Assembly: GCA_900317745.1 (NCBI GenBank)
Contig: ONHW01000008.1
Coordinates: 62,001 to 126,000, forward strand
Reading direction: 5' to 3'
Source of the DNA: an uncultured Bacteroidales bacterium
GTDB lineage: Bacteria > Bacteroidota > Bacteroidia > Bacteroidales > Paludibacteraceae
DNA: 64,000 nucleotides
Shown here piece by piece: positions 15,580-48,675 of the stretch. Every line of letters begins with the position of its first letter. Position 1 is the first letter of the stretch. The notes under the pieces are model-generated. The model worked only from the letters and a program-made list of their open reading frames with translations. It was not told where the DNA came from and searched no databases. The position numbers and the translations under genes are program-made.

Positions 15580-16149
15580 TTATATATTATATGTTTCCGG
15601 TCCGCGATCCATGAGCGCGTCCAGAATGCTTGTTCCGTTGCCCCAGTATGGCTCCAAGTCTGCCTGCATAAACTGCTCCGTGTATCCGATTCCTTGTTCC
15701 GAACCCTCTCCTCTGAGAGGGGAGTCGGAGGGGTGTCCTTGGGGTCTCTTGTTCTCCAGCAGGCTGACTATCACCTCGTGCAATCCGTCGTTGAGATCGA
15801 TGAGCCATTTTGTTTCCCGTTCATAGAACGGTGCGAAATAGTCAGCGTAGTAGTCCCAGTACGGTGACTTGCCGTAGGCACTCTTCAGTGCCATCCAGTG
15901 TTGGTGCTGCCAGTGTTGCTGATAACTGATCTGCACGTCACGTGTCAACTGCTTGTGTTCCACCTTCAATACAGGTACAGTGAGTATCACCTCGTGCCCT
16001 TGTGCGTCGTGAATGAGACACCTGTTTCTGTACGTCTGCTTGACAAACGACTCCTGCACCTCAATCAGCACCTGTTCGTTGGCGCGCCTGGCAGCGAAGA
16101 ATGCTTCGTACCACGCCTCAGGAGCCATATATGCTGTAGGAAGAATCAA
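15580..16149 (-). CDS. WbqC-family protein
   Basis: 189 residues resembling the WbqC family, often found in polysaccharide or lepB neighbourhoods, function not established. Conserved features seen include the N-terminal PTAYMAP, KQTYRNRCLI, and HWMALKSAYGKSPYWDYY. Residues 134-152 (GHPSDSPLRGEGSEQG) interrupt the fold and are encoded by a GC-rich palindromic repeat at 15693-15752. The gene lies just downstream of lepB. Confidence 0.8.
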   Translation of the reverse strand: MILPTAYMAPEAWYEAFFAARRANEQVLIEVQESFVKQTYRNRCLIHDAQGHEVILTVPVLKVEHKQLTRDVQISYQQHWQHQHWMALKSAYGKSPYWDYYADYFAPFYERETKWLIDLNDGLHEVIVSLLENKRPQGHPSDSPLRGEGSEQGIGYTEQFMQADLEPYWGNGTSILDALMDRGPETYNI

Positions 16150-16183
16150 TGTTTGATGTTTGATTTTTAATTTTTAATTCATT

Positions 16184-17608
16184 CTACCGCATATCGTGCT
16201 TTCCAAGGCGGGAAAAGCGGATAGAATGCGTATCTTTATCTATACTGAGCCACACGAAGATCGGCTGGCCGACAATATGATCTTCGGGCACAAATCCCCA
16301 GTAGCGGCTATCGGCGCTGTTATGGCGGTTGTCGCCCTGCATCCAATAGTAATCCATTTTGAACGTATATTCCTCGCCTATACGTATGGGCTGGAACTCG
16401 TAGGCGTCGGCTATGCGCTTGTATATCCAGTAGTTCTGCTCGGTGATCATCACCCGGTCGCCCTTGCGCGGGATATAGATCGGTCCGTAGTTGTCGCGTG
16501 TCCACTCGTTATGCCCGAGCGGATAGACTGCACCGCCGTTCTGCGAAGGTTCAAGAATGATTTCGGTTACGTGCGGGTTCTTCTCCAGTTGCTCTTTCAT
16601 CGCTTTGGTCAGCGGAAAATGATAGATACCTGCTTCGACCATGATACGGTCGTCCATACTGATGCCCACCTTGTCGAGATAGGATTTGGTGAGCACGTGT
16701 CCGTCGGTCCGAACGAAATAGTTGAGTTGCGCAAACTCATGTGTCGGCTCCTGTATCCACCCGCTACTTTTCACTTCTGAACGCTCTGTTTCTCTCAACT
16801 CTAAACTCTCAGCGCTCAACTTCGTATAAATCACGTTATCCACGATCTTCAGGCTGTCGCCGGGTGTGCCTACGCAGCGCTTGACATAGTTCTCGCGGCG
16901 GTCAACGGGACGCACAACTATATCGCCGAATATATCCTTGCGGTTGTGCACAACGTTTCTTCCCTGATAGTAGCATAGCGTGTAATAGTCGGGGTTCTGG
17001 ATCTTCGTGCAGACGGTATCGCCGGCGGGGAAGTTGAACACGACTATATCGCCTTTCTGGGGTGTTTTCCATCCGGCGAGACGTTTGTATTCCCAATGCG
17101 GGTTATCGAAGTAACTCTTGCCACCACCGAGCCACTGGGGGAACGTATGTTGCACGAGGGGCATTGAGAGAGGAGTCTGCGGCACGCGTGCACCGTAGCC
17201 CATCTTGGAGACATAGAGGAAGTCGCCCACGCGGAGCGTTTTTTCGAGCGAGGAGGACGGAATCTGGTAGTTCTGGAAGATATAGATGTTGATAAAATAC
17301 ACCGCCACCAGTGCAAACACGATAGCATCTATCCACGAGAAGATAGTGTACAGCAATGCGTTCCCGGCTTTCGACTTTCGACTATCGTCTTTCGACTCCT
17401 CCGGTTTGTACTTCTTCCACCAGCTCCAGGGGATATATTTGGTGGTGAACATATCGGCTATCAGCGGCAGCAGTAGCAGCCACCACAGACTTTTCCAGTC
17501 GCCCCATGCTACCCAAATGACAAATGCTATATACAGCGTGCACCATATACCTGCACGCACCCATCCTCCGGTTGTTACTTCACGTATTCGTTCGTTAAAT
17601 GATTTCAT
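16184..17608 (-). CDS. lepB: Signal peptidase I, large Bacteroidetes form
   Basis: 474 residues. Two to three N-terminal membrane segments precede the periplasmic catalytic domain. Probable nucleophile S120 lies in IPSSSLEKTLRVGDFL and general base K243 in NYVKRCVGTPGD; the C-terminal box is GDNRHNSADSRYWG. It removes signal peptides from exported proteins. Two segments look inserted: residues 70-80 (ESKDDSRKSK, DNA 17367-17397) and 264-282 (DNA about 16770-16821), both encoded by micro-repeat families also found between genes. Confidence 0.93.
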   Translation of the reverse strand: MKSFNERIREVTTGGWVRAGIWCTLYIAFVIWVAWGDWKSLWWLLLLPLIADMFTTKYIPWSWWKKYKPEESKDDSRKSKAGNALLYTIFSWIDAIVFALVAVYFINIYIFQNYQIPSSSLEKTLRVGDFLYVSKMGYGARVPQTPLSMPLVQHTFPQWLGGGKSYFDNPHWEYKRLAGWKTPQKGDIVVFNFPAGDTVCTKIQNPDYYTLCYYQGRNVVHNRKDIFGDIVVRPVDRRENYVKRCVGTPGDSLKIVDNVIYTKLSAESLELRETERSEVKSSGWIQEPTHEFAQLNYFVRTDGHVLTKSYLDKVGISMDDRIMVEAGIYHFPLTKAMKEQLEKNPHVTEIILEPSQNGGAVYPLGHNEWTRDNYGPIYIPRKGDRVMITEQNYWIYKRIADAYEFQPIRIGEEYTFKMDYYWMQGDNRHNSADSRYWGFVPEDHIVGQPIFVWLSIDKDTHSIRFSRLGKHDMR

Positions 17609-17657
17609 TCTGTTTTTTTAGTTTAGCGTTGAGTGTTTAGTGTTTAGTGTTGAACTC
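17609..17657. repeat. GTTTAGTGTTGAG micro-repeat spacer
   Basis: TTTAGCGTTGAGTGTTTAGT and following units fill the dapB-lepB junction. The same GTTGAG/GTTTAG family appears at 12793-12824, 18535-18590, 27201-27229 and 32138-32200, and inside dapB and lepB. Confidence 0.85.
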
Positions 17658-18407
17658 TCAAACTTTCAAACCTTCCAACCCGAGCACCTCATTCATGCTG
17701 TGCCAGCCTGTTTTGCCGCGTAGCCACTCGGCAGCGAGCACTGCGCCGAGCGCGAATCCCTGTCGTGATTTGGCTTCGTGGCGCAGGGTGAGTATATCCG
17801 CCTCGCTCTCCCATCGCACCTCATGTATGCCGGGCACTTCGCCTTCACGTATTGACGTGATGGGTACATTTCCCACACACTCCCCGTTGAGACGGGTATT
17901 GTCTCCCTCTTTTGAGAAGAGGGTCGGGGAGATGTTTTCCGCCAAAGTCTTGGCTGTGCCCGAGGGCGCGTCGAGTTTGTGGATATGATGCACCTCGGTG
18001 ATAGAGGGTTGGTACCCACCTGTGTTATGCAATAACTGTGCCAGATACTTGTTGACGGCAAATAATATGTTCACGCCAATGCTGTAGTTGCTGCTCCAGA
18101 TCACGCCGGGGAGCTCGTTGAGTGTTGAGCGTTGAGTGTTGAGTGTTGCTTTCAATCCTTCGACATCCCAGCCGGTAGTGCCGCTGACGACCGGCACGCC
18201 TTGTGCGAGGGCAGCACGGACGTTCTGTTCGGCAGCCTCGGGGCGAGTGAACTCGATCGCCACATCCGCGCTGCGGAATGCGGGGCTGTCAAAAGTTTGC
18301 GGGGAGGTCAACGGATCAATGACGCAAACGATCTCGTGCCCGCGCGAGAGGGCGACGGATTCGATCATCCGTCCCATTTTGCCATATCCGATAAGAGCTA
18401 TTTTCAT
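17658..18407 (-). CDS. dapB: 4-hydroxy-tetrahydrodipicolinate reductase
   Basis: 249 residues from the ATG at 18407; upstream codons are excluded because the promoter lies at 18464-18494. The Rossmann start MKIALIGYGKMGRMIE binds NAD(P)H; EVHHIHKLDAPSGTA (H140/H141, K144) is the catalytic motif. It acts in lysine/diaminopimelate synthesis. Two in-frame inserts are visible: residues 87-97 (ATLNTQRSTLN, DNA 18116-18149) and 159-173 (DNA about 17880-17935), from two different repeat families. Confidence 0.94.
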   Translation of the reverse strand: MKIALIGYGKMGRMIESVALSRGHEIVCVIDPLTSPQTFDSPAFRSADVAIEFTRPEAAEQNVRAALAQGVPVVSGTTGWDVEGLKATLNTQRSTLNELPGVIWSSNYSIGVNILFAVNKYLAQLLHNTGGYQPSITEVHHIHKLDAPSGTAKTLAENISPTLFSKEGDNTRLNGECVGNVPITSIREGEVPGIHEVRWESEADILTLRHEAKSRQGFALGAVLAAEWLRGKTGWHSMNEVLGLEGLKV

Positions 18408-18463
18408 TATGCAAATGCGTTGTACGAGCGTGCGCGAACACCTGTGCGCACACAAAAAGCCTA

Positions 18464-18494
18464 CAAAGGTAATAAAAAAAATGCACATTTGCAA
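18464..18494 (-). promoter_or_regulatory. -33/-7 promoter of dapB
   Basis: Minus strand TTGCAAA (18494-18488), 16 bp, TACCTTTG (18471-18464). It fixes the dapB start at 18407 and implies a dapB-lepB-WbqC-ilvE transcript. Confidence 0.85.
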
Positions 18495-18534
18495 ACTTTT
18501 CCGCAGAAAAATTACAAAGATGTGCATTTTTTTA

Positions 18535-18586
18535 TGTTGAGTGTTTAGAGTTGAGTGTTTAGAGTTTAGCGTTTAGCGTTTAACGT
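18535..18586. repeat. GTTGAGTGTTTAGAG micro-repeat tract after sulP
   Basis: Seven or eight imperfect units (GTTTAGAG, GTTGAGTG, GTTTAGCG) run from just after the SulP stop codon towards the dapB promoter. Confidence 0.85.
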
Positions 18587-20320
18587 TTAGCGTTGCGTGT
18601 TCTCGAGTAGCATGCGTGCGCGCTTGAGTGCCACGTGGATGTTCGGGCAGATGTTCTCGGGATTCATCTCCTGCTCGATGCCATAGGTCTGCAGTTGGTG
18701 CAGCACGTGTGTCTTGACACCGGAGAGGATGATCGTCATACCCTCGCGGTGCGAGCGTTCGATGAGAATAGAGAGGTTATGCATGGCGGTTGAGTCCACG
18801 AACGGCACTTTGCGCATACGGATGATACGTATGGGGCACTTCTCGCCGGACACGTGGCTCATGATATCGTCAAAGCGGTTGGCTATGCCGAAGAAGTACG
18901 GTCCGTCGATCTCATATACCTCCACGCCATCGGGGATAGTCAGGTGCTCGAGGTTAAGCTGGATATCTGTATCTTCGTTGGGGTCGATCTCCTTGTTGAA
19001 CGTGCGGATATGTGTCTGCTCGTTCGTACGCATAAGGAAGAGCACCAGTGCGAGCAATATACCCACCTCGATAGCAACGGTCAGGTCGAAGATCACGGTC
19101 AGGAAGAACGTGATAAGCAGCACCCAGAGGTCGCGTGTGGGGTGTTTGATCAGTCCGGCAATCGTTTTCCATCCGGACATCGAGTAGGCGACCATAATCA
19201 GCACGGCAGCGAGGCAGGACATGGGTATGAGTCCGACGAACTGCCCGAGAAAAAGCAGCACGAGCAGCAGCACTACGGCGTGGATGATACCTGCTACGGG
19301 CGTGCGTCCGCCGTTGTTGATGTTCGTCATTGTACGTGCAATGGCACCTGTAGCGGGTATGCCTCCGAAGAACGGCACAACGATGTTCGCCACGCCCTGG
19401 GCGATGAGTTCGGTGTTGGAGTTATGTTTGTCGCCAATCACGCCATCGGCAACCATCGCGGAGAGCAGCGACTCAATAGCGCCTAACATCGCAATGGTGA
19501 ACGCGGAGGGAAACAGCTTCTGGATGAGCGTAAAGACCGACTCACCTTCCGCCAACTGTAGTGTAGGCATGTGCGGTGCGGGTATGCCGTGCGGCAGTTC
19601 GTACAGATTGCTGATCGTCAGCAGACTGCCAACGCCCCATGACTCGGGTGCGAACCGCTTGAGCAGCCATACGGCGAGTGTAGCGAGGATGATTGCCGCC
19701 AGGCTGCCGGGTACACGTTTGGTGAGCAGCGGCATACCGATGCACACGGCGAGCGAGAACAATCCTATGCCCAGTGTCCACCAGTTGACGTTGAAGTGCT
19801 GCGCATAGAAGATCCACTTGTCCACGAAGTTAGCGGGCACGTCCTGCAGTCCGAGTCCGAAGAAATCGTTCATCTGCGTGGAGAAGATCGTCAGGGCTAT
19901 ACCTGCCGTGAATCCTACGATCACGGGATAGGGCACGAACTTAATGACCGAGCCCAGATGTGCGACGCCCATGAGCACGAGCAGTATGCCTGCCATGATT
20001 GTGGCGATCATCAGTCCTGTCAATCCGTATTGCTGGATTATGCCGTAGATGATCACGATGAACGCGCCTGTCGGTCCGCCTATCTGCACTTTGCTGCCGC
20101 CGAACACGGATATGAGCAATCCGGCAATGATAGCCGTAACGAGTCCTTCCGTCGGCCCAACGCCCGAGGATATGCCGAAAGCGATAGCCAGCGGAATAGC
20201 CACTATGCCTACAATGATACCTGCTAGTGCATCTTGTCCGAATTGCGCCCGGCTATAGTGGCGCAGGGTATGAAACAGTTTAGGTTGGAAAACGTCCTTA
20301 GCCGAAAAATGGATATTCAT
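18587..20320 (-). CDS. SulP-family inorganic anion transporter with STAS domain
   Basis: 577 residues. About 11 membrane segments are followed by a cytosolic STAS domain (from about residue 450). The N-terminal DALAGIIVGIVAIPLAIAFG is the SulP signature. Substrates in this family include sulfate, bicarbonate and dicarboxylates; the sequence does not decide. It has its own promoter at 20375-20405. Confidence 0.92.
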   Translation of the reverse strand: MNIHFSAKDVFQPKLFHTLRHYSRAQFGQDALAGIIVGIVAIPLAIAFGISSGVGPTEGLVTAIIAGLLISVFGGSKVQIGGPTGAFIVIIYGIIQQYGLTGLMIATIMAGILLVLMGVAHLGSVIKFVPYPVIVGFTAGIALTIFSTQMNDFFGLGLQDVPANFVDKWIFYAQHFNVNWWTLGIGLFSLAVCIGMPLLTKRVPGSLAAIILATLAVWLLKRFAPESWGVGSLLTISNLYELPHGIPAPHMPTLQLAEGESVFTLIQKLFPSAFTIAMLGAIESLLSAMVADGVIGDKHNSNTELIAQGVANIVVPFFGGIPATGAIARTMTNINNGGRTPVAGIIHAVVLLLVLLFLGQFVGLIPMSCLAAVLIMVAYSMSGWKTIAGLIKHPTRDLWVLLITFFLTVIFDLTVAIEVGILLALVLFLMRTNEQTHIRTFNKEIDPNEDTDIQLNLEHLTIPDGVEVYEIDGPYFFGIANRFDDIMSHVSGEKCPIRIIRMRKVPFVDSTAMHNLSILIERSHREGMTIILSGVKTHVLHQLQTYGIEQEMNPENICPNIHVALKRARMLLENTQR

Positions 20321-20374
20321 TCTGATATTTGTCTGTTTAAGTCTGAGTTTTATTCAGTTACGATTATTTCGGTG

Positions 20375-20405
20375 CAAAATTACTAAAAACTTTTGAATTA
20401 TGCAA
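20375..20405 (-). promoter_or_regulatory. -33/-7 promoter of the SulP gene
   Basis: Minus strand TTGCATA (20405-20399), 16 bp, TAATTTTG (20382-20375), about 55 bp before the start codon. Confidence 0.8.
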
Positions 20406-20580
20406 ATTATAGCTGAATAATACCTCATATATTCTCAAATTGTCTTTTCTCATTTGCATTTTTGCTTTTTCCGTCTCTTACCTGTCTCTCTTTCTTTTCG
20501 TCTTCCCGGTTCCTGTCTTTCTATCCTTATCTTCGTTCATTTCGCTTATTGTCGTTCATTTCGCTTATCTTCGTTCATTT

Positions 20581-20903
20581 CGCCCGAATTGTATTCGGGC
20601 ATCGGCTCTTCTGAGCCGCCATATATCGACCAAGCTTGGTCGATCCCCCGTCTCTCTCTTTCTTCGTTCATTTCGCCCGAATTATATTCGGGCATCGGCT
20701 CTTCTGAGCCGCCATATATCGACCATCTTCTGAGCCGCCATATATCGACCAAGCTTGGTCGATCTCCCGTCTCTCCCTTTCTTCTTTCCTTTCGCCCGAA
20801 TTGTATTCGGGCATCGGCTCTTCTGAGCCGCCATATATCGACCAAGCTTGGTCGATCTCCCGTCTCTCCCTTTCTTCTTTCCTTTCGCCCGAATGACATT
20901 CGG
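20581..20903. repeat. Array of 93-bp units, each with three inverted repeats
   Basis: Units start at 20581, 20674, 20793 and (partial, diverged) 20886. Each holds GCCCGAAT-3 nt-ATTCGGGC, then CGGCTC-TTCT-GAGCCG, then the perfect 20-bp palindrome ATCGACCAAGCTTGGTCGAT, then about 28 bp of pyrimidine-rich spacer (CCCGTCTCTCTCTTTCTTC). Unit 2 is 119 bp because a 26-bp segment is duplicated inside it. Degenerate CGTTCATTTCGCTTA units precede the array (20533-20580). It lies between two divergent promoters and is not explained by a gene. Confidence 0.9.
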
Positions 20904-20969
20904 CTACACCGCCACCGCAGCAAAACTGCATTTTTCTCTCCCCTTATCGTAAAAAAAATCGCAACTCTC

Positions 20970-21001
20970 TTGCAAATATCATTATTTTTGTGTACCTTTG
21001 C
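20970..21001 (+). promoter_or_regulatory. -33/-7 promoter of the truncated RhuM-like gene
   Basis: TTGCAAA (20970-20976), 16 bp, TACCTTTG (20993-21000). A small inverted repeat (GTCACTCACTGAC) lies in the leader at about 21027-21039. Confidence 0.8.
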
Positions 21002-21079
21002 ACCCACAAAGGTTTAGGACCTCTCCGTCACTCACTGACGTTAAACAGATGAAGATATAATAAAAGACGTTTATTGACG

Positions 21080-21379
21080 ATGAAAGATGAGAGAGTACTA
21101 TATAGACCTAATGAGCAGGTTCAGCTGGAAGTTCAACTGAAAGATGAGACTGTTTGGCTCAATGTAAACCAGATAGCCTTGCTGTTTGACCGTGATAGAA
21201 CGGTTATTTCGAGGCATATACGCAACATATATAAGGAGGGCGAATTGGATGAAAATATCACATGTGCAAAATTTGCACACATGGGTATGGACGCCGACCA
21301 AGTATATGAAACCACATATTACAACTCAAGTACGGTTTATGCACGCTCACGTAGTAGCGTGAGTTTTCCGTGCATTTAG
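21080..21379 (+). pseudogene. Truncated RhuM-family protein
   Basis: 99 codons from the ATG at 21080. Residues 1-85 match the N-terminal portion of RhuM-family proteins (VWLNVNQIALLFDRDRTVISRHI, EGELDE, CAKFAH, TYYN), a helix-turn-helix-like region of a family usually over 300 residues. After TYYN the frame runs into unrelated sequence and stops. A CTCACG-TAGTAG-CGTGAG hairpin with a T-run sits at the break. It is probably a deletion remnant, although the promoter is intact and a short product could still be made. Confidence 0.7.
21346..21367 (+). terminator. Small hairpin at the end of the truncated RhuM-like gene
   Basis: CTCACG (21346-21351) pairs with CGTGAG (21358-21363) and TTTT follows. 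The stem is short, so this is only a possible terminator. Confidence 0.4.
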
Positions 21380-21478
21380 TTGAATAGATATAGGTAGTCG
21401 AGAACCTCAGAAAATCAAATGAAGCGAACGAAAGCGCACGCTTTTTGTGTATTTATGGTAAAAAAATGTTATAAACTA

Positions 21479-23776: not shown

Positions 23777-23874
23777 AATTGGCAGTCGCGCTCACTACCG
23801 CTTGCTGATGGAGTATCGTTATGCTTTTCCGGCACAATTTTTGTTGTGTCTTTTATAAAACCGTTTCGGTATTT

Positions 23875-23960
23875 TAGTAGGTGATTAGTAGGTGAATAGT
23901 AGATGATCAGTAGGTTATTAGTAGATGATTAACCCAATCAAAACGCAACCACCTCGTAAC
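23875..23960 (-). repeat. Dispersed element with CTACTAATCAC iterons, copy 2
   Basis: Read on the minus strand it has GTTACGAGGTGGTTGCGTTT, ATTGGGTTAATCAT and then CTACTAATAAC/CTACTGATCAT/CACCTACTAAT units, the same order as 1821-1908. The 230-bp gap it occupies (23777-24006) has no gene. Confidence 0.8.
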
Positions 23961-27203: not shown

Positions 27204-27277
27204 GTTGAGCGTTGAGAGTTGAGAGTTTGAGAAGCCTACCCCCTGCCCCTCCCTGAAGGGAAGGGAGTGTTGAGGGT
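27204..27277. repeat. Composite micro-repeat spacer between recX and recO
   Basis: The whole junction is repeat: GTTGAG units, a GC-rich palindromic element (CCCTGCCCCTCCCTGAAGGG), then more GTTGAGGGTTT. The stretch 27227-27272 is identical over 46 bp to 28235-28280 inside the prmC coding sequence. Confidence 0.92.
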
Positions 27278-27745: not shown

Positions 27746-28583
27746 AGCTGTCTGTGAGGCATTGTGCCTCGTAACCTGATTGTTGCATGAGTGTGATCAT
27801 CTCGTTGCCGAGATGTTCGTTGATCTCGAACCACAGCTCGTCGGCGGCATGCAGTTCGGCAATCCGCCGGTAGAAGATCAGCGGGTCGTTCTCGGGCACG
27901 AACAGAGCTTGTGCGGGTTCGTGCAGGAGGGTGTTGGCGGTCATTGAGTCTTGCTCCGACGGACGTATATATGGCGGATTGCTGACGATAAGGTCGTAGT
28001 GTCCGATATCGTCGGTGAGTATATCCGCATAGAAGAAGTGTACATCGAGATTGTTGCGCGTGGCATTGGTGCGTGCTATGCTGAGTGCCTCGCGACTGTT
28101 GTCGAGTCCGGCAACCTGCCACTCGGGGTGCCGCTGCTTGAGCGCCAGGGCTATGCAGCCGGAGCCGGTGCCGAGGTCTAATATGTTGAGGGACATCCCC
28201 CGACCCCTTCTCAGAAGGGGAGAAGAGTTGAGGGTTGAGAAGCCTACCCCCTGCCCCTCCCTGAAGGGAAGGGAGTGTTGGTTGCAGATGAGGGTGACGA
28301 GTTCGGCGGTTTCGGGACGGGGAATGAGCGTGGCGGGAGTGACCTTCAGATCCAAACCAAGCCACTCAGTATGACCGAAAATATACTGCACAGGGACGTA
28401 CTCGGATAATTTTTTTAAAATTATTTCTAATTCTGGTATATTTTTTGTACCTTTGTGCATGCTGACGTCAAAACGGTTCATTCCGGTTGTTTCCTCGATG
28501 ATCCAGAACGCCAGTTCGCGTGCCTCTTGAGGCCCGTATAACGGGGTAAGCCGGGTGACAATATGTTCGAGAATCGCTTTCAC
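27705..28583 (-). CDS. prmC: Peptide chain release factor N5-glutamine methyltransferase
   Basis: 292 residues from GTG at 28583. The enzyme methylates the GGQ glutamine of release factors. LIPRPETAELV, DLGTGSGCIAL and SNPPYIRP (about 201-208) are diagnostic. Residues about 101-132, between LVTLIC and ILDLGTGSG, are an in-frame insert from a GC-rich repeat (DNA 28186-28285). The promoter -7 box ends at 28588, so a GTG start at 28583 would be nearly leaderless; an upstream TTG at 28598 lies in the promoter itself. Confidence 0.9.
   Translation of the reverse strand: MKAILEHIVTRLTPLYGPQEARELAFWIIEETTGMNRFDVSMHKGTKNIPELEIILKKLSEYVPVQYIFGHTEWLGLDLKVTPATLIPRPETAELVTLICNQHSLPFREGQGVGFSTLNSSPLLRRGRGMSLNILDLGTGSGCIALALKQRHPEWQVAGLDNSREALSIARTNATRNNLDVHFFYADILTDDIGHYDLIVSNPPYIRPSEQDSMTANTLLHEPAQALFVPENDPLIFYRRIAELHAADELWFEINEHLGNEMITLMQQSGYEAQCLTDSYGKQRFIHARFSR
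28186..28285. repeat. Repeat inserted in frame in prmC
   Basis: Two palindromic parts, CCCCTTCTCAGAAGGGG and CCCTGCCCCTCCCTGAAGGG, are joined by GTTGAGGGTTGAG. The second part belongs to the 46-bp identity with the recX-recO spacer. It encodes about 32 residues and keeps the frame open. Confidence 0.9.
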
Positions 28584-28845: not shown

Positions 28846-29877
28846 ATGACAGATTCTGATTATATATTACGTTGTCTGGAGTTGGCTGCCAACGGGGAGT
28901 ATTACGTTGCGCCTAATCCTATGGTAGGTGCGTTGCTGGTTGATCCGGCAACCGACCGAGTTGTAGCCGAAGGCTGGCACCGGCAGTACGGCGGTCCGCA
29001 TGCCGAGGTAGAGTGTTTTCGTGCGGCAGACGCGCGTATGGCAGGTCTGACCGAGGCAGAGAAAGCCGCCCGGTACAGCAGCCTGACATTGTATGTGTCG
29101 CTTGAGCCGTGTTCGCACTACGGCAAGACACCGCCTTGCGCCGACCTGATTGTGAAAAAAGGTGTGCGTCGTGTAGTGGTGGGCATATTGGATCCTAATC
29201 CGCAAGTGTCGGGCAAAGGTGTTCAGAAGTTACGCGACGCGGGCATAGAGGTGACGGTTGGTGTGGAGCAGGCGGCGTGCCGGAGGCTGAACAAGCGGTT
29301 CCTGTGTCTGCACGAGAAGCACCGCCCGTACGTGATACTGAAGTGGGCACAGACGGCAGACGGGTTTGTGGATAGCAGAGAGTCGAAAGCCGAAAGTCAG
29401 CCGCTGGTGATATCCACGCCGGTGACGAAACAGATCGTGCACCAGATGCGTGCCGAGAACATGGCTATCATGGTAGGAACGCGTACCGCACTGCTGGACA
29501 ACCCGTCGCTGCTGACCACCCGTTGGCCCGGGCGCAACCCCGTGCGTGTGGTGTTGGACAGACACCACCGCATACCAAAAGATGCCAAGATCTTCTCGGG
29601 CGATGCACCGACGATCGTCTATAGCGAGCGCACGGACTGGGAGTACGTACTCGGCGACCTGGCGCAGCGCGGCATACACTCGGTGCTGGTGGAGGGCGGA
29701 CCGACACTGCTGCGGCATATACTGCAGACGGGTATATGGGACGAGATGCACGTTGAGGTAGGTGCTATGACGATCGGCAGCGGTGTGCTGGCACCCGAGG
29801 TTGAACTGCCGGATACGTACGAGCAGGTAGGGGAGGCTAAACTATACACGATTGACAATTTGCACGAATACGAATAA
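28846..29877 (+). CDS. ribD: Bifunctional riboflavin deaminase/reductase
   Basis: 343 residues from ATG 28846; upstream codons are repeat-derived. The N-terminal deaminase has zinc ligands H52 (with E54, PHAEVE), C89 and C98 (EPCSHYGKTPPC). The C-terminal reductase begins near PYVILKWAQTADGF and includes MVGTRTALLDNPSLLTTR and LVEGGPTLL. It catalyses the second and third riboflavin steps. Residues 177-185 (SRESKAESQ) are an insert encoded by an AGTCGAAAG micro-repeat. Confidence 0.94.
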   Translation: MTDSDYILRCLELAANGEYYVAPNPMVGALLVDPATDRVVAEGWHRQYGGPHAEVECFRAADARMAGLTEAEKAARYSSLTLYVSLEPCSHYGKTPPCADLIVKKGVRRVVVGILDPNPQVSGKGVQKLRDAGIEVTVGVEQAACRRLNKRFLCLHEKHRPYVILKWAQTADGFVDSRESKAESQPLVISTPVTKQIVHQMRAENMAIMVGTRTALLDNPSLLTTRWPGRNPVRVVLDRHHRIPKDAKIFSGDAPTIVYSERTDWEYVLGDLAQRGIHSVLVEGGPTLLRHILQTGIWDEMHVEVGAMTIGSGVLAPEVELPDTYEQVGEAKLYTIDNLHEYE

Positions 29878-32137: not shown

Positions 32138-32265
32138 GGTTGAGTGTTGAGTGTTGAGTGTTTAGTGTTGAGCGTTTAGAGTTGAGTGTTTAGAGTTGAA
32201 AAGTTAATAGTGTTGCTGGTAGTCGGCTTGTTGTCAGTTGTCAATTGTCAATTGTCAATGAGTCA
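32138..32265. repeat. Micro-repeat tract entering the OstA-like signal peptide
   Basis: GTTGAGTGTTTAG units (32138-32200) are followed by TTGTCAGTTGTCAATTGTCA units (32230-32257). The first contains the likely GTG start at 32186 and the second encodes the end of the signal peptide. Confidence 0.8.
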
Positions 32266-33915: not shown

Positions 33916-34629
33916 ATGAAGAAACTATCAACAATCCTCTTAGCCCTGCTGCTGGCAGTCAGTCTGTCGGCACAGGAAGAAATGGGCGGTCTGGGCTTCC
34001 ATATCGGTTTTGCCGCGCCTACGCTGCGCGTGAACAGTCCGACCACGAAAACGCTGGAAACCATCCCTATGAACGGTGTGAAAGTCGGTTTAAGTTACGA
34101 TGCCACGATCATCAAAGGTTTTGGTACGACACTGGGCTTGAACTACACGTTCGGCACGTATCACTCCAAGTGGTCGAGCGTGAGCGAAGGCGGTTACTCC
34201 ACCGCTCAAACCAGTTACCGTGACACGTATCAGGGTTTGGAGATCTTCTGCGACTGGCAGTACAAGTTCGAGATAGCGGGTGACACGTACGTAATGCTCT
34301 ACACGGGTCCGACGATCCAGGTACACCTCTCGCTCAAGGAGCAGCAGTATCTTCGTTCGGGTGATGAAACAACGCGCCAGACACGCTACGGCTACGAGTA
34401 CCGCGACAACGAGGCGTTTGAGGACTACAAACGCGTGAATGTGACCTGGGGCGTGGGAGCAGGATTCCAGTACAGGCAGTTCTTCCTGCGTGGCGGGTAC
34501 GACTTCGGTTTGTTCAATCCGTTCCGCTACGACACGTTCCGTGCCATGGGTGTGGATTCCGACTTATACACCCGCGGTCGCTTCGACCAGTGGCAGATCA
34601 AACTCGGCTTGTATCTCTTGCAGTTCTAA
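33916..34629 (+). CDS. Small outer-membrane beta-barrel protein
   Basis: 237 residues. The signal peptide ends at LSAQ. The rest alternates aromatic and polar residues (GTTLGLNYTFGTYHSKW, FQYRQFFLRGGYDFGLF) and ends in GLYLLQF, a C-terminal Phe typical of barrels sent to the BAM complex. Its cargo or binding partner is unknown. It lies 47 bp after the OstA-like gene in an envelope cluster. Confidence 0.8.
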   Translation: MKKLSTILLALLLAVSLSAQEEMGGLGFHIGFAAPTLRVNSPTTKTLETIPMNGVKVGLSYDATIIKGFGTTLGLNYTFGTYHSKWSSVSEGGYSTAQTSYRDTYQGLEIFCDWQYKFEIAGDTYVMLYTGPTIQVHLSLKEQQYLRSGDETTRQTRYGYEYRDNEAFEDYKRVNVTWGVGAGFQYRQFFLRGGYDFGLFNPFRYDTFRAMGVDSDLYTRGRFDQWQIKLGLYLLQF

Positions 34630-34765
34630 AGACCCACCCCCTGCCCCTCCCTCAAATTCACCCCACTTCCGTTGGTCGCAGGGACCCCGATAGGGAGGGG
34701 AGTGAATAGCCATAGCAAGAACAAGGCAGACTATCGACTTTTGACTATCGACTATCGACTAAAAA
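34630..34765. repeat. GC-rich element and CGACTATCGACT spacer before dnaG
   Basis: CCCCTGCCCCTCCCT and GATAGGGAGGGGAGTG flank a central segment (34637-34705). TATCGACTTTTGACTATCGAC units (34731-34762) then run to the dnaG start. Confidence 0.8.
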
Positions 34766-41058: not shown

Positions 41059-41412
41059 ATGGCTTGTTTTATTGTACCATTGACTCAAGCGATAGCCACA
41101 ACGGCATATCGCAAATCGGTAGAGAAAAAGCAATCGTTGACTAACAGCGATAGCTGCCTTTCACCTTTCACCTCTCATCTCTCATCGTTGGAGAAGATGC
41201 TGTGGGGCGGATCGCTGATGCTGGTTGTGGACCATATCATCAACGGAGAAGTGACATGGATGTACCCGTTCTTCACGGCGTTGGAGACGGAGGGTGGCTG
41301 GCAAACGATGCTCAGCGAAATGTTGACCGTAGGCGTGCCGATGAGTGTGATTGTGACTGCAGTATGGGCGGTATATTGCTATGCAGTGGAAAAAAAAGCC
41401 GTCAAGGCATAA
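41059..41412 (+). CDS. Small inner-membrane protein in the hyp cluster
   Basis: 117 residues with two hydrophobic segments in the second half (about 49-60 and 88-108) and a hydrophobic N-terminus. No family recognised. Residues about 26-43 (LTNSDSCLSPFTSHLSS) are encoded by a TTTCACCTCTCATC micro-repeat (41138-41188), so the original protein was probably about 100 residues. It precedes the DUF5692 gene by 75 bp. Confidence 0.7.
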   Translation: MACFIVPLTQAIATTAYRKSVEKKQSLTNSDSCLSPFTSHLSSLEKMLWGGSLMLVVDHIINGEVTWMYPFFTALETEGGWQTMLSEMLTVGVPMSVIVTAVWAVYCYAVEKKAVKA

Positions 41413-43247: not shown

Positions 43248-43296
43248 TGGTTTGATATTTTAGGGTTAATTAATATTATTCTATTGTCAATTATTT

Positions 43297-44112
43297 TCAA
43301 TAGCTCTCTTCAGCGGACGGGAAGGACGAATCTTTGACGGCCGTTATGTAGTCGCCTACGGCTGATTGGATATTTTCGGCGAGGTGTGCGAACTGACGCA
43401 GGAATTTCGGCTTGAATCCTTGGTTGAGTCCGAGCATATCGTGCAGGACGAGCACTTGTCCGTCAGTACCTGCACCAGCACCTATGCCAATAGTCGGGCA
43501 GCTGACGGCAGCTGTGACGCGCGCAGCGAGTGCGGCAGGTATCTTCTCGAGCACGATACAGAAGCAGCCGGCTTCATCCAGCAGCCGTGCGTCAGAGAGC
43601 AGTTTGTCAGCCTCTGTCTCCTCCTTGGCACGCAGACCATATCCGCCGAACTGGTTGACGCTTTGCGGCGTTAGTCCCAGGTGGCCGCAGACCGGCACAC
43701 CGGCTTTTACCATGCGGCGTATGGCGTCGGCTATCTCCTGTCCGCCCTCGAGTTTCACTGCATCGGCACCGCTCTCCTTGAGCATGCGGATAGCGTTGGC
43801 TACTGCCATATCGTCGTTCACCTGGTAGGAGCCGAACGGCATATCTGCGACCACCAGTGCGTGTTGCGCAGCGCGCACGACGCCTTTGGTGAGGAAAATC
43901 ATCTCGTCAAGCGTGATAGGCAGTGTATATTGGTTGCCGCACACAATGTTGGATGCACTGTCGCCAACAAGGAGCATATCCACTCCGGCTTCGTCCACCA
44001 GCCGGGCGAGGGTATAATCGTAGGAGGTGAGCATTGTGATTTTCTCACCTTGTTGTTTCATCTGGCGAATCTTTGTTGTCGTCAGACGGGTATTTTGCGT
44101 ATGAACAGACAT
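43297..44112 (-). CDS. panB: 3-methyl-2-oxobutanoate hydroxymethyltransferase
   Basis: 271 residues. MLTSYDYTLARLVDEAGVD, VGDSASNIVCG, DMPFGSYQV and GHLGLTPQS are family motifs. It makes ketopantoate in pantothenate synthesis with methylene-tetrahydrofolate. It has its own promoter at 44174-44204; no other pan genes are close. Confidence 0.95.
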   Translation of the reverse strand: MSVHTQNTRLTTTKIRQMKQQGEKITMLTSYDYTLARLVDEAGVDMLLVGDSASNIVCGNQYTLPITLDEMIFLTKGVVRAAQHALVVADMPFGSYQVNDDMAVANAIRMLKESGADAVKLEGGQEIADAIRRMVKAGVPVCGHLGLTPQSVNQFGGYGLRAKEETEADKLLSDARLLDEAGCFCIVLEKIPAALAARVTAAVSCPTIGIGAGAGTDGQVLVLHDMLGLNQGFKPKFLRQFAHLAENIQSAVGDYITAVKDSSFPSAEESY

Positions 44113-44173
44113 TTTTGTTGTTTTTTTAGGTTGCAGTGCGGCAGCGGTGAGTACCGTTAGCCGAATGCGTGTG

Positions 44174-44204
44174 CAAAGTTACGACTTTTTTTTGACATTT
44201 GCAA
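44174..44204 (-). promoter_or_regulatory. -33/-7 promoter of panB
   Basis: Minus strand TTGCAAA (44204-44198), 16 bp, TAACTTTG (44181-44174). The 321-bp divergent region to the AraC gene otherwise holds AT-rich sequence with no gene. Confidence 0.85.
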
Positions 44205-44379
44205 ATAAAAAGTGTTTTTGATAGAAGATTGTGTGAAATTTGTCGGCACAACATTCAAAAGAGTGTATGTTTTGTGCGTTTGTGTCAGTTTTTGTGTACG
44301 AATTGTTCCTTAAGCCTGCCAAAATTGTAAACTGCAGGCGACTTTTGGGTAAGTATAGAACAAAAAGTGCAAAAATATC

Positions 44380-44410
44380 TTGCAAATATCAAATATTTTT
44401 TGTAACTTTG
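44380..44410 (+). promoter_or_regulatory. -33/-7 promoter of the AraC-family gene
   Basis: TTGCAAA (44380-44386), 16 bp, TAACTTTG (44403-44410). Confidence 0.85.
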
Positions 44411-44433
44411 CATTGAAGTTTTCATTAGAAGTG

Positions 44434-45696
44434 ATGAATACTATATCGAAACAGATTCGCCAACTTTATTACGATTACCGGTCTGAACTTGTGTTCGGCC
44501 TGGTGCTATGTGTGCTAATGTTAGTCAGTTACTGGCTCGCAACGTTTATCCCTGAGGATATGTACACGTACATGATTGATCCTGCTTTTACGTTGAGCAT
44601 GACAGTCGGTTGCTTCTGGTGCGGTTGGCTTATGCTGCGTCACCTGGACGGGAATGTGCTTCGCCGTTCGTGGGCAGGTGTGTTGTTAGCGTGGGCTGCG
44701 ATAGAGGGGTTGATGCTTGTGCTGCGGATCAACGGAATAACGGCTGTAGGCGGCACGCCGGATGATCCGTTGTTCAATGCGTCGGTTGTGGCAGGCAATT
44801 TTCTGGCGTGGCTACTGTTTGTCTATCCCACGCAGGTGTTACGTCCGGGTTGGCTCAGGTGGTGGGTAGTGATTATACTCCTTTTGCCGCAGATCTTGTT
44901 GGGCTACCTGGATTACAAGTTGGATATCAATCTGCTGCCAATTATTTTGGCGTTCCCGGTTGTACTCTTTTTCCTTGTTTGCCGGCATATACACAAGTAT
45001 CGCCAGTGGTGTGAGAACAACTTCTCGTCGATGGACAGCATAGATGTGCAGTGGATAGTGCGATACCTGGTTATGCTCTTTCTGGCAGGTGTGTCGTTCT
45101 ATTTTATATGCACATGTTTTATCCCCAACCGATTGTTTACGCAGCAGTGGTTCTTGTTCTTTATGCTTATGTACACAACGGAGCAGGTGCTGTTTCGTCC
45201 TGACCCGTGGCAGAAGTTGCAGCGTGGCGATTCGGAGGAGTACGGTGATCCGATGAATTACATCTCAGCCCCGGAAATCATCCAGCCGGATCGTGAAGTT
45301 GGGCAGCGTGAGGATATATCGGCGCAGCGTGCCGCCCTTGAGCAATGGATGGAGCAGGATAAGCCCTACCTGAATCCGAACTTCCAGTTGACAGATATGC
45401 GTAAAGTGCTGCCATTGAACCGCACGTATCTCAGCCAGTTTATCAAAGCGGAGTTCGGCTTCCCGTTCTACCAGTTTGTGAACGGTTATCGCGTCAACGA
45501 AGCAAAGCGGTTGATGTCAGAGAATCCGAATATGAAGATAGTGGATGTGGCGACGCAGGCAGGATTCTCGTCACGTACTGTATTCTCATCGATTTTTACC
45601 AAAGAAACAGGTGTCTCACCCAGCGAGTGGAGCAAGCAGCAGGCGGGAAATATTGATGACACCGACAAATCGTCAATGCCCTCCGACAAATTGTAA
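44434..45696 (+). CDS. Membrane-anchored AraC-family transcriptional regulator
   Basis: 420 residues from ATG 44434. About seven hydrophobic segments in residues 20-250 are followed by a cytosolic linker and an AraC DNA-binding domain at the C-terminus (YLSQFIKAEFGFPFYQFVN, RVNEAKRLM, IVDVATQAGFSSRTVFSSIF). The layout suggests a membrane sensor coupled directly to transcription. The ligand is unknown. Isolated gene with its own promoter. Confidence 0.87.
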   Translation: MNTISKQIRQLYYDYRSELVFGLVLCVLMLVSYWLATFIPEDMYTYMIDPAFTLSMTVGCFWCGWLMLRHLDGNVLRRSWAGVLLAWAAIEGLMLVLRINGITAVGGTPDDPLFNASVVAGNFLAWLLFVYPTQVLRPGWLRWWVVIILLLPQILLGYLDYKLDINLLPIILAFPVVLFFLVCRHIHKYRQWCENNFSSMDSIDVQWIVRYLVMLFLAGVSFYFICTCFIPNRLFTQQWFLFFMLMYTTEQVLFRPDPWQKLQRGDSEEYGDPMNYISAPEIIQPDREVGQREDISAQRAALEQWMEQDKPYLNPNFQLTDMRKVLPLNRTYLSQFIKAEFGFPFYQFVNGYRVNEAKRLMSENPNMKIVDVATQAGFSSRTVFSSIFTKETGVSPSEWSKQQAGNIDDTDKSSMPSDKL

Positions 45697-45791
45697 ACCC
45701 CCAAAGAGTGTTTTTACGAGGCGATTTATGTCATAATACGTAAAAATATTGCGTTTTTTGGTCATTCTGCGTCAAAATATGCTTTCCCCTA

Positions 45792-45822
45792 TTGCGAAAG
45801 TGCAGATTTTTTTGTATCTTTG
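45792..45822 (+). promoter_or_regulatory. -33/-7 promoter of ssb
   Basis: TTGCGAA (45792-45798), 16 bp, TATCTTTG (45815-45822). An ACGCAGAATGACC repeat core on the minus strand lies just upstream. Confidence 0.85.
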
Positions 45823-45854
45823 CATTGACAATTATTAAAAATACTATTCTTACT

Positions 45855-46238
45855 ATGACTTCAGTCAATAAAGTTATCCTTGTTGGAAACGTGGGTTCTG
45901 ATCCTGATGTACGCACCTTGGAGCGTGGCGGGATTATTGTATCACTCAACCTTGCAACCACTGAGCGCGGGTACACGATGCAGAACGGCATTCAGGTGCC
46001 CGATCGCACCGAGTGGCATTCTATTGTGCTGCGCAACAATCTTGCCGATTGGGCAGAGCGCAGTATCAGAAAAGGGATGAAGTTGTACGTTGAGGGCAAA
46101 CTGCAGACGCGCAGTTGGGAGAAAGACGGTCAGCGTCGCAGCAAGACCGAGGTAGTAGCCGAGTCGATACAGATCTTGTATCGTCCCGCAGACAACCGTC
46201 GCCCTGAATCTTTCGACCCAGACGAGGAGAATGAGTAG
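45855..46238 (+). CDS. ssb: Single-stranded DNA-binding protein
   Basis: 127 residues from ATG 45855, the first ATG after the promoter. OB fold start VNKVILVGNVGSDPDVRTL, then TEWHSIVLRNNLADWAE and KGMKLYVEGKLQTRSWE. The C-terminal tail is acidic (FDPDEENE) but lacks the usual terminal Phe. It may be a second or short SSB. Confidence 0.92.
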   Translation: MTSVNKVILVGNVGSDPDVRTLERGGIIVSLNLATTERGYTMQNGIQVPDRTEWHSIVLRNNLADWAERSIRKGMKLYVEGKLQTRSWEKDGQRRSKTEVVAESIQILYRPADNRRPESFDPDEENE

Positions 46239-46271
46239 TGAAGTACGCGAACAGTAACGCTACATCACAAC

Positions 46272-46303
46272 ACAGCAGCCGCACTATGAGGTGCGGCTGC
46301 TGT
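46272..46303. terminator. Bidirectional terminator between ssb and the NfnSL gene
   Basis: ACAGCAGCCGCAC (46272-46284) pairs over 13 bp with GTGCGGCTGCTGT (46291-46303), with a 6-nt loop. Confidence 0.85.
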
Positions 46304-46323
46304 TGTTATCAGGGTGTTGTCCG

Positions 46324-48675
46324 TTACTTGTCAGCGCTGAGTGCGGCGTGCATGGCTGCTGCGGCTTTACGTCCGTCGGACATAGCGAGGATCACCGTAG
46401 CGCCACCGCGGACTATATCGCCGCCGGCATAGAGGACAGGCAGCGAGGAGCGCATGTTGTCGTCCACGACGATCGTGCCTTTGCGTGACACTTCGAGTCC
46501 GGCTACGGACTTCGGTATGATCGGATTGGGCGACACGCCTACTGCTACCACTACCATGTCGGCGGGCATAGTGATCGTCTTGCCTTCAACAGGCACAGGC
46601 GAGCGGCGACCGGATTCATCGGGTTCACCCAAAGTCATGACTTGCAGCACCGCCTCCTTGACACGGCCGCTTTCGTCGGCGTGGTACTCGATAGGGTTAT
46701 GCAAGGTCATGAACTCTATACCTTCGGCTTTGGCGTGCTCCACCTCCTCATGACGTGCAGGCATTTCGTCCTCGCTACGGCGATACACGATGATCGCGTG
46801 TTCTGCGCCCAGACGTTTGGCTGTACGCACCGCATCCATGGCGGTGTTGCCACCGCCTATGACGAGCACGTTCTTGCCATAGAGCACCGGTGTATCGGTG
46901 GCGGCGTTGGTGGCGTCCATAAGGTTCACGCGCGTGAGGTACTCGTTGGAGGACATAACACCGTTGAGGTTCTCACCCGGGATACCCATGAATCGCGGCA
47001 GACCTGCGCCCGAGGCGACAAACACAGCCTTGTAGCCGTCAGCCTGCAGATCATCGACAGTGATCGTCTTGCCAACAATTGTATCGGTGACAAACTCCAC
47101 GCCCAAGGCGCGCAGACCGTCGATCTCCTTATCCACAATCGCGTTAGGCAGACGGTACTCGGGTATACCGTACTTGAGCACACCGCCAATGGCGTGCAGC
47201 GCCTCGAACACTGTGACCCGATAGCCGTATTTAGCCATGTCGCCGGCAAAGGTCAGGCCGGCAGGACCAGATCCGACTACAGCAACCTTTAGACCGCTTT
47301 CGCTGACAGACCGTTCGCTTTGCTCACTGATAGAGTACAGACCGCTCGTTTCACTCGCTGAAAGATTGTCAGCATGGTCGGCAACGAAGCGCTCGAGGTA
47401 ACCGATGGCAACGGGTTTGTGCCCCATTTTCAGATGGATACATTGTGCTTCGCACTGCTTCTCCTGCGGGCATACGCGGCCGCAGACGGCAGGCAGCGAA
47501 CTGGACTCGTGGATGATAGCCGAAGCCTTCTGTATATCGCCGAGTTCGATCTGCTTGATGAACGCCGGTATATCGATGTTCACGGGGCAGCCTTTGACGC
47601 AGCCCGGGTTCTTGCAACTCAGGCAGCGGTGGCTCTCGGTGAGAGCCTGTTCGGGTGTCAGGCCGAGGTTGACCTCTTTGTGGAGCGACTTAATACGCTC
47701 CTCGGGTGCCAGTTCGGGCATAACTACGCGAGGAATGGCGGCGCGCTCTTTCGGAGAAAGACCAAGACCCTTCTCCGGCTCTCCCCTCATAGGGGAGAGA
47801 GTAGTATGACTCGAATCTGAGGGTTGGGGAGTGACGGAGTTGGTTTCTGCGTGTTGACCATTGAGGTAGGCTTCGTAGGCAGCGGCTTCCTCAGGCTTGT
47901 AGGAGCGCAGGCGGGAAAGCATTTCATCGAAATCCACCTGATGCGCATCGAACTCGGGTCCATCGACACAGACGAACTTCGTTTGTCCGCCAACGGTGAC
48001 ACGGCATGCGCCGCACATACCTGTGCCGTCCACCATGATTGTGTTCAGCGAAGCTTCGGTAGGGATATTGTACTTCTTGGTGGTGAGTGCGACGAACTTC
48101 ATCATGATAGCGGGACCGATCGTGATACACTTGTCCACGTGCTCGCGTGCTGCAACCGTCTCTATACCTTGTGTGACCAATCCCTGCGTTCCCATCGAAC
48201 CATCATCTGTCATGACGATCACTTCGTCGGAGGTGGCAGACAGTTCGTCGTGGAGGATGATCAGGTCTTTGTTACGCGCAGCGAGTATAGTGATCACGCG
48301 GTTGCCGGCGCGCTTGAGCGCCTGTGCGATAGGCAACATAGGCGCAGCACCCACGCCACCGCAGGCACAAACGACCGTTCCGTAGTTCTCGATACGCGTA
48401 GCCTGCCCGAGCGGGCCAACAATGTCCGCAAGGCAGTCGCCCGGGTTCAGGGCGCAGAGTTTGGCACTGCTGACACCAATACGCTGTACGACCAGAGTGA
48501 TCGTGCCGGCAGAGGTGTCGGCGTTGGAAATGGTGAGCGGCATACGCTCGGAGTTGTTGTCCACGCGCACTATGACAAAGTGTCCTGCGCGACGACTCTT
48601 GGCAATGAGCGGAGCTTCCACAACGAGCTCCGCTACATTGTCAGAGAAGAAACGCTTAGAAATGATCCGATTCAT
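46324..48675 (-). CDS. NfnS-NfnL fusion: NADH-dependent ferredoxin:NADP+ oxidoreductase-like
   Basis: 783 residues. Residues 1-275 are the FAD/NAD and [2Fe-2S] subunit (VCACGGVGAAPML; cysteines C221, C224, C236 in GMCGAC...FVC). Residues 310-783 are the GltD/NfnL-like [4Fe-4S] flavoprotein (CLSCKNPGCVKGCPVNIDIP, VAVVGSGPAGLTFA, VIGGGNTAMDAVRTAKR). It probably couples NADH, ferredoxin and NADPH pools, or acts as a glutamate synthase small subunit. Two in-frame repeat inserts lie in linkers: residues about 279-306 and 437-461. Confidence 0.88.
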   Translation of the reverse strand: MNRIISKRFFSDNVAELVVEAPLIAKSRRAGHFVIVRVDNNSERMPLTISNADTSAGTITLVVQRIGVSSAKLCALNPGDCLADIVGPLGQATRIENYGTVVCACGGVGAAPMLPIAQALKRAGNRVITILAARNKDLIILHDELSATSDEVIVMTDDGSMGTQGLVTQGIETVAAREHVDKCITIGPAIMMKFVALTTKKYNIPTEASLNTIMVDGTGMCGACRVTVGGQTKFVCVDGPEFDAHQVDFDEMLSRLRSYKPEEAAAYEAYLNGQHAETNSVTPQPSDSSHTTLSPMRGEPEKGLGLSPKERAAIPRVVMPELAPEERIKSLHKEVNLGLTPEQALTESHRCLSCKNPGCVKGCPVNIDIPAFIKQIELGDIQKASAIIHESSSLPAVCGRVCPQEKQCEAQCIHLKMGHKPVAIGYLERFVADHADNLSASETSGLYSISEQSERSVSESGLKVAVVGSGPAGLTFAGDMAKYGYRVTVFEALHAIGGVLKYGIPEYRLPNAIVDKEIDGLRALGVEFVTDTIVGKTITVDDLQADGYKAVFVASGAGLPRFMGIPGENLNGVMSSNEYLTRVNLMDATNAATDTPVLYGKNVLVIGGGNTAMDAVRTAKRLGAEHAIIVYRRSEDEMPARHEEVEHAKAEGIEFMTLHNPIEYHADESGRVKEAVLQVMTLGEPDESGRRSPVPVEGKTITMPADMVVVAVGVSPNPIIPKSVAGLEVSRKGTIVVDDNMRSSLPVLYAGGDIVRGGATVILAMSDGRKAAAAMHAALSADK
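47289..47371. repeat. AGACCGCTTTCGCTGACAG repeat inside the NfnSL gene
   Basis: Three units related to the ribD-upstream and 7224 spacers lie in frame here. They encode a Ser/Glu-rich linker (about residues 437-461) just before the FAD motif. Confidence 0.85.
47767..47838. repeat. GC-rich palindromic element inside the NfnSL gene
   Basis: CTCCCCTCATAGGGGAG and flanks encode SDSSHTTLSPMRGEPEKG, very like the insert in the WbqC-family protein (SDSPLRGEGSEQG). It marks the joint between the NfnS and NfnL parts. Confidence 0.85.

Follow-up and report, generated by a model that had tools for sequence, protein, structure and literature searches.

Short repeat modules lie in frame within conserved enzymes of a herbivore-gut Bacteroidales genus

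Repeat segments in conserved proteins of the window

The stretch analysed here, referred to below as the window, comprises 64,000 nucleotides of an uncultured Bacteroidales bacterium (assembly GCA_900317745.1, contig ONHW01000008.1, forward-strand positions 62,001 to 126,000), whose 2.6-Mb, 95.6% complete genome represents a Paludibacteraceae-like genus of herbivore guts. An initial annotation had described low-complexity segments in eight conserved proteins of this window, which on its and our own recognition we take to be LepB, DapB, PrmC, RibD, an NfnSL fusion, a WbqC-family protein, a flippase and a membrane protein designated 41059; all of the segments were found where it had placed them (Table 1), the flippase being the weakest case. 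Repeat DNA lies in frame in these and other conserved enzymes, at sites that are empty or occupied by another repeat family in relatives, and it takes the form of discrete, recurring modules whose copy number has expanded in some species.

Table 1 Repeat segments in the window and related arrays (window coordinates unless a locus is named)
Feature	Position (strand)	Repeat content	Remarks
LepB, residues 70-80	17368..17397 (-)	30-bp (AGTCGAA)4AG module, encodes SKDDSRKSK	Orthologues lack it, carry the same family or carry other repeats
LepB, residues 264-282 (second site)	16792..16821 (-)	Starts with 30-bp AGTTGAG-family module (LSAESLELR)	
DapB, residues 87-97	18117..18148 (-)	CNCTCAA-family heptamer module (TLNTQRSTLN)	
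DapB, residues 159-173	17903..17937 (-)	GC palindrome (ISPTLFSKEG)	Member of the nhmmer family
PrmC, residues 101-132	28203..28286 (-)	Two GC palindromes and a heptamer-like linker	AlphaFold pLDDT ~52 at 111-130
PrmC insert block	28235..28280 (+)	46 nt	Identical to the intergenic copy
Intergenic copy	27227..27272 (+)	46 nt	Identical to the PrmC insert block
RibD, residues 177-185	29374..29400 (+)	Short GTCGAAA-type array (SRESKAESQ)	Not in closest relative L143
NfnSL fusion, residues 279-306	47758..47841 (-)	GC-rich, palindrome-like	Absent in closest relative L197; outside the nhmmer hits
NfnSL fusion, residues 437-461	47293..47367 (-)	16-bp-repeat family	Closest relative has the same family here
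WbqC-family protein, residues 134-152	15694..15750 (-)	GC-rich, palindrome-like	Absent in L031-L033; outside the nhmmer hits
Flippase, residues 74-83	6975..7004 (-)	Loose period-7 segment	Weakest case; shorter loop in closest relative L203
41059 membrane protein, residues 26-43	41157..41186 (+)	30-bp CTTTCAC/CTCTCAT module	
Transporter 9853-11331, N-terminus	11304..11333 (-)	AGTCGAA-family array (KVESRKSKD)	
Intergenic/edge array	32139..32200 (+)	GTTGAG-family heptamers	Same pool as the gene inserts
Edge array	18535..18601 (-)	CTCAAC family	67 bp
23-nt arrays before ACCGCT	L308:2521-2543, L407:1264-1286, L413:995-1017, L421:999-1021	Three AGTCGAA units	

We compared the window's genome with 36 further species of its genus (37 genus genomes) and with 24 genomes from other families of the order, the titled comparison genomes being nearly all metagenome-derived. 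Of 80 LepB loci, 42 were assigned to the genus through LepB identity and contigs in common with the genus genomes, and the remainder were treated as outgroup; LepB relatives in named records are titled as Paludibacteraceae or Bacteroidales bacteria and come from samples of rumen, deer, goat, sheep, horse, yak and buffalo. Assembly error is an unlikely source of the inserts, since the pattern is consistent over dozens of independent assemblies. Alignments were made for LepB from 30 loci (own included) and 42 named genus loci, for WbqC from 41 loci and for DapB from 37; those of PrmC, RibD, NfnSL and the flippase held 30 loci each and that of the 41059 protein 15, own copies included (row L122 of the PrmC alignment is a mis-extracted paralogue).

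Every listed site has a shorter loop in some species, and at most sites others carry an unrelated low-complexity segment from another repeat family. The PrmC site is representative: the window has its two GC palindromes here, the closest relative has a heptamer array that encodes ISNQQSA repeatedly, and in further orthologues the loop contains LSNFKSKISN or VESLKLKVER or is simply short. None of the 14 aligned orthologues of the 41059 protein has the residues of its insert, while four have a different, longer segment. The window's own family does recur in orthologues at the first LepB site (L003 and L035) and, in the closest relative, at the second NfnSL site. The initial annotation had reasoned that repeat-free orthologues with the same residues would mark the segments as ancestral; the repeat-free orthologues lack those residues, and because others have a different family at the same place, we conclude that the segments are not ancestral. 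A comparable site was seen in an aromatic amino acid lyase, where the closest relative and two others (L360, L361, L365) have GGTGAAC/GGTTATC-type heptamer arrays at the position of the own AGTCGAA array, marking a shared hot spot.

The period of seven was measured against several controls. The 706 kb of genus loci contain 74 lag-7 periodic segments (105 per Mb), whereas 695 kb from the outgroup contain 5 and order-2 Markov shuffles none; at other periods the genus loci yielded 10 (lag 8) and 1 (lag 6). Relative to segments of the same length from the same gene, strong lag-7 signal at the site was found in 3/43 LepB sequences versus 0.001 at the first site and 9/43 versus 0.003 at the second, in 9/41 versus 0.008 for WbqC, in 10/38 versus 0.047 and 5/38 versus 0.019 for the two DapB sites, in 7/29 versus 0.012 for PrmC and in 4/30 versus 0.003 for RibD. 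The excess is weak for NfnSL (1/30 versus 0.004 and 2/30 versus 0.001), the flippase (1/30 versus 0.003) and the 41059 protein (1/15 versus 0.007). These controls bear directly on the idea that the sites are variable loops inherited from an ancestor, with a low complexity that looks like repeats by chance, as the length variation of some sites even among orthologues without strong periodicity might suggest. Together with the near-identical modules in unrelated proteins and the missing residues in repeat-free orthologues, the shuffle and same-gene comparisons contradict such an origin for most sites, and we consider it scarcely credible overall; the flippase segment may nonetheless be a loop of this kind.

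The flippase gene (window 5709-7223; L202-L231) has a further peculiarity, in that its first ~50 residues are near-identical in DNA in up to 25 of 435 species pairs, the remainder of the gene being 76-86% alike in the same pairs.

Copy number, anatomy and copying of the modules

The family analysed most closely is AGTCGAA, for which a 22-nt pattern (at most 2 mismatches, overlapping matches counted) gave 146 matches in the window's genome; five relatives (G001, G008, G014, G021 and G028) have 44 to 88. The pattern occurs in 27 of the 37 genus genomes, own included, and in none of the other ten, and it was found in 0 of the 24 genomes of other families. A reversed-pattern control gave 0-2 matches per genome.

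AGTCGAA arrays were drawn for the own genome, G028, G031 and G017 from best-first lists (own: best 100 places) and are therefore not random samples. Most have fixed ends and follow (AGTCGAA)nAG, or 7n+2 bp, exactly in 28 of 55 cases and with an extra leading A in 10 more. Among the best-first 56 own arrays, 46 lie in open reading frames (ORFs) of 60 aa or more (38 sense, 8 antisense), 8 are intergenic and 2 lie at an edge. The commonest gene insert consists of four 7-bp units plus 2 bp, giving 30 bp or ten codons: among sense arrays in ORFs of 150 aa or more, n=4 accounts for 28/38 in the own genome, 8/10 in G028, 6/10 in G031 and 6/9 in G017, and the remaining 10 own arrays have n = 3, 5, 6 or 7. 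Outside genes, four units were found in 1/10 own arrays, 4/5 in G028 and 0/1 each in G031 and G017. The four genomes yielded 72 standalone 30-mers, 17 of which are one and the same 30-mer letter for letter; T precedes 41, C follows 55, and 32 have both. Four of the three-unit (23-nt) arrays run straight into ACCGCT, the start of the 16-bp family (Table 1), which suggests composite modules whose summed length, 23+16=39, is also a multiple of 3.

The 46-nt block in the PrmC insert recurs exactly in intergenic DNA 1 kb away, and this block is a GC palindrome rather than a periodic array. The own LigA gene has AT, then 30 nt, then CGGTGAG at the place where the closest relative, G001, has ATCGGCAAG (placed by eye; BLAST splits the gap), which fits an addition without target duplication. 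Across 30 sequences the same LigA codon is filled in 12, by several heptamer families, and short in 18. The suggestion of the initial annotation that the elements are mobile or copyable draws support from the PrmC pair, from the 146 AGTCGAA matches versus none in the 24 genomes of other families and from this LigA site empty in the closest relative, insofar as sequence comparison can indicate movement.

Some LigA orthologues (L331, L334, L339 and L349) have an in-frame stop reported within the match. We dropped the notion that modules always add exactly 30 nt: a gene in L035 that we take to be IlvE-like fits it (by eye), LigA fits at the junction only and WbqC in L043 does not. Cassette transfer was likewise considered for near-identical blocks around the LepB inserts of L039 and L063 and was rejected; such blocks occur along genes in general and so reflect short-tract mosaicism rather than mobility of the inserts.

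Arrays could instead have grown in place by local slippage, extending in 7-bp steps from a chance 9-nt seed (a 2-bp repeat seven apart). To stay in frame within a gene, such growth would have to add 21 or 42 nt, and this too would yield lengths of 30 and 51 nt. In an earlier survey, heptanucleotides were the commonest class of long simple repeats in most genomes, and polymerase slippage was put forward as their source (PMC4679880). The heptamers also differ between arrays and drift along single arrays, and own unit numbers outside genes range from 2 to 11. Against growth in place as the full explanation stand a heptamer that dominates certain genomes and is absent from others, a 30-mer shared letter for letter by 17 of 72, the four-unit arrays of G028 outside genes, where frame selection is impossible, and the nonperiodic PrmC copy; the AGTCGAAAG seed that such growth calls for is not visible at the LigA site of G001. 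We regard slippage as an unlikely origin for the modules as a whole, though it may account for some arrays.

Other families share parts of this behaviour. The CTCAAC family of the same genome has the same architecture, with exactly 30 nt in 6 of its 10 gene arrays and a further 22 arrays outside genes or at edges, and GC palindromes (~36 bp) and the 16-bp family also occur in genes. We defined the GC palindrome family with nhmmer; its final profile, at E 0.01, omits its own seeds at 15521-15562 and 34627-34668, and gave 9 hits across 344 kb of the own genome, of which 4 fall in ORFs. Genus loci yielded 23, every one of them in an ORF, and outgroup loci 0. A GC pattern matched 19/37 genus genomes and 2/24 others; four species have 23 to 35 matches each, the own genome 4.

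Three further repeat types were noted in passing. ACGGAT repeats (9-10 bp) form two large inverted clusters (window 997-1115 and 2097-2215) with 119-nt arms that are 86% complementary; tandem repeats of 93-119 bp containing TCTTCTGAGCCGCCATATATCGACCA lie at window 20607-20894; and a family with an 11-bp period (TAATCACCTAC) occurs at least 3 times in the own sample (window 1850-1907 and 23874-23931; L248:3126-3181).

Frame, fold and the origin of the modules

Since 7 is coprime to 3, a perfect AGTCGAA array encodes one heptapeptide (SRKSKVE) in all three frames; this independence of frame is limited to perfect AGTCGAA arrays, and in LepB the AGTTGAG 30-mer has just one open frame. At a lower threshold, own and genus loci together hold 119 arrays, of which 57 lie wholly in ORFs (at least 60 aa), 36 at edges and 26 in intergenic DNA, the gene calls in these counts being simple ORF picks that cover ~95% of the sequence. 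Of the 57, 35 were confirmed by homology to other loci on either side of the array. Across all heptamer families, a length of 29-33 nt is found in 22/35 confirmed gene arrays versus 16/62 outside or at edges (p 0.0005), and stop-free heptamers make up 26/35 confirmed gene arrays versus 17/52 intergenic strands (p 0.0002). In nine gene arrays built from stop-bearing heptamers all eleven expected stops have been changed by substitution, a count to be read with the open frame that the ORF definition demands and with the probable common descent of those in L039 and L063. At the second LepB site the would-be TGA codon of the heptamer is TTA (by eye), and L036 has the same change. The earlier inference that inserts are tolerated where the frame survives is in keeping with the 30-nt modules and with substitutions exactly at would-be stops.

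Strand and structure extend this inference to the fold. AGTCGAA arrays in ORFs of the four genomes lie in sense in 71 cases and antisense in 13 (p 8e-11, best-first samples); the sense reading is hydrophilic (SKVESRK) and the antisense reading is not. In AlphaFold models the mean pLDDT is 89.7 for PrmC and 83.1 for LepB, with values of ~52 at the PrmC insert and ~65 and ~54 at those of LepB; the inserts are modelled mostly as coil, with a few short turns of helix, and are flanked by elements of better prediction quality. Structure prediction thus places the inserts of both proteins in low-confidence, mostly coil regions and, with the sites occupied by several families and the bias toward the hydrophilic strand, it favours the view that they persist where the fold survives.

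Of 41 ORFs with an AGTCGAA array, 29 (26 sense, 3 antisense) were compared with Pfam, and all but two of these gave a match. Among the sense hosts are DNA polymerase I, NAD-dependent DNA ligase, a MutS2-type protein, ribonuclease HII (near the C-terminus), SecDF, 3-dehydroquinate synthase, aromatic amino acid lyase, glycogen synthase, peptidase U32 and a pullulanase-type protein, and near-identical modules recur in unrelated proteins. By Pfam coordinates, the inserts of LigA, MutS2 and DNA polymerase I fall between domains. In several proteins (L258:7455-11160 and L324) an SKVESQK module directly precedes a C-terminal VLRDGQLLIIR-like segment, which to our eye resembles a type IX secretion sorting domain.

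These placements raise the question of whether the peptides are useful in themselves, selection favouring hydrophilic flexible linkers and retaining any repeat that makes one. The 71:13 bias toward a K/E/S/Q reading, the interdomain inserts in LigA, MutS2 and Pol I and the residence of 46/56 own AGTCGAA arrays in ORFs would all accord with this. Mere tolerance would leave hydrophilic inserts too, however, and the families found at one site share no peptide motif, with many species having nothing there, so that we judge selection for the peptides to be very improbable as the explanation.

We think it likely that pre-made modules are copied into new sites and then sieved by selection, while slippage lets the unit number drift. 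Very small dispersed repeats would spread within the genomes of one genus as ready-made blocks copied from other sites by some activity; selection would then purge those that break the frame, carry a stop or place a hydrophobic peptide in the fold, leaving the modules in genes when their cost is low, while slippage would alter unit number. A perfect, stop-free AGTCGAA array, offering the same hydrophilic heptapeptide in every frame, would be easily absorbed by genes. Heptamers are more alike within genomes than between them (probability of a distance of at most 1, 0.188 for 512 pairs versus 0.094 for 6509; permutation p 0.0004), a likeness that is significant but modest.

Several observations weigh against this reading. 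Pooled heptamers are under-represented in genes, with 57/119 wholly in ORFs at ~95% ORF coverage (on which count we dropped the claim that heptamers overall do not avoid genes), and only 10 of the 32 CTCAAC arrays lie in genes. The 119 arrays comprise 66 distinct heptamers, unlike one mobile family, and slippage could make some of them; own unit numbers outside genes vary (2,3,3,3,4,5,7,7,8,11), and the T and C flanks of the 30-mers are a preference and no rule. Within the aligned part of LigA, the own gene exceeds that of G001 by 24 rather than 30 nt, owing to differences in the codons that follow, and some sites swap residues instead of gaining 30 nt (WbqC in L043). The closest loci compared are ~80% identical in DNA, and insertion was accordingly never observed inside one species. 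A search of the own genome for Y1 (RAYT-type) transposases with PF01797 gave one hit, at 21.5 bits, below the cut-off of 23.

A bolder proposal, to which we give somewhat less than even credence, holds that the 30-bp modules are a minimal class of mobile DNA shaped for genes, with fixed ends, ten codons, no stops and independence of frame, inserted by an enzyme at T^C-like sites without duplication; the heptamer would be replaceable and the architecture would stay. Bacterial genes can absorb scattered repeat DNA more readily than expected, in modules down to 30 bp, and the hosts include the core enzymes DNA polymerase I, DNA ligase and MutS2. The inserts amount to natural, replicated experiments on insertion-tolerant protein loops and offer a model of how selfish DNA may turn coding-compatible.

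Relation to known repeat systems

Rickettsia is the best-known case of repeat DNA residing in frame in many conserved enzymes, and such inserts are described here in a gut lineage of another phylum; among the entries listed by a search of the open-licence PMC literature, none reported such inserts for this genus. Rickettsia palindromic elements (RPEs) are several families of short repeats found between genes and in frame within conserved genes, 105-150 bp long and palindromic with terminal inverted repeats, and an RPE in Gmk left the tested enzyme active with altered substrate affinity (PMC2229807, PMC10969869). The analogy with RPEs drawn by the initial annotation holds for the effect, namely in-frame inserts in conserved protein genes that are absent from orthologues. 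It does not extend to the element: the main family is ~30 bp and nonpalindromic, the heptamer modules being mostly 30 bp in genes and consisting of four direct heptamers without inverted ends (by eye), and only the GC family, at ~36 bp, is palindromic.

REP elements are given as 20-40 bp (PMC3733652), and the GC palindromes have this size. They differ from the REP/RAYT arrangement in that the own genome, at its 95.6% completeness, has no Y1 transposase above the cut-off. The modules also differ from miniature inverted-repeat transposable elements (MITEs), since the 30-mer has no inverted ends by eye and LigA, a single site, fits insertion without duplication. Elhai and colleagues reportedly described, in 2008, very small and presumably mobile dispersed repeats of cyanobacteria; the modules described here would be set apart from them by sequence, by host and by in-frame residence in dozens of ORFs.

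A likeness in form is to heptanucleotide dispersed repeats, those of Xanthomonas and Nostoc (GGGNATC type) and of Beggiatoaceae (TAACTGA), which are tandem exact 7-bp units found genome-wide, as here. Cyanobacterial STRR are further heptanucleotide tandem repeats. The preference of such repeats for four units is shared by AGTCGAA in sense ORFs of 150 aa or longer. The Xanthomonas and Nostoc repeats are G-rich and under-represented in coding sequence, whereas many heptamers occur in this genus and most are not G-rich; coding avoidance is present here for the pooled heptamers and slight for AGTCGAA (46/56 own arrays in ORFs). We considered G-quadruplex formation as a cause of four-unit arrays and rejected it for AGTCGAA and CTCAAC, because neither has runs of G. 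Such G-run-free heptamers make it possible to test a long-standing question, the reason for the preference of simple repeats in bacteria for a 7-bp period and for four units.

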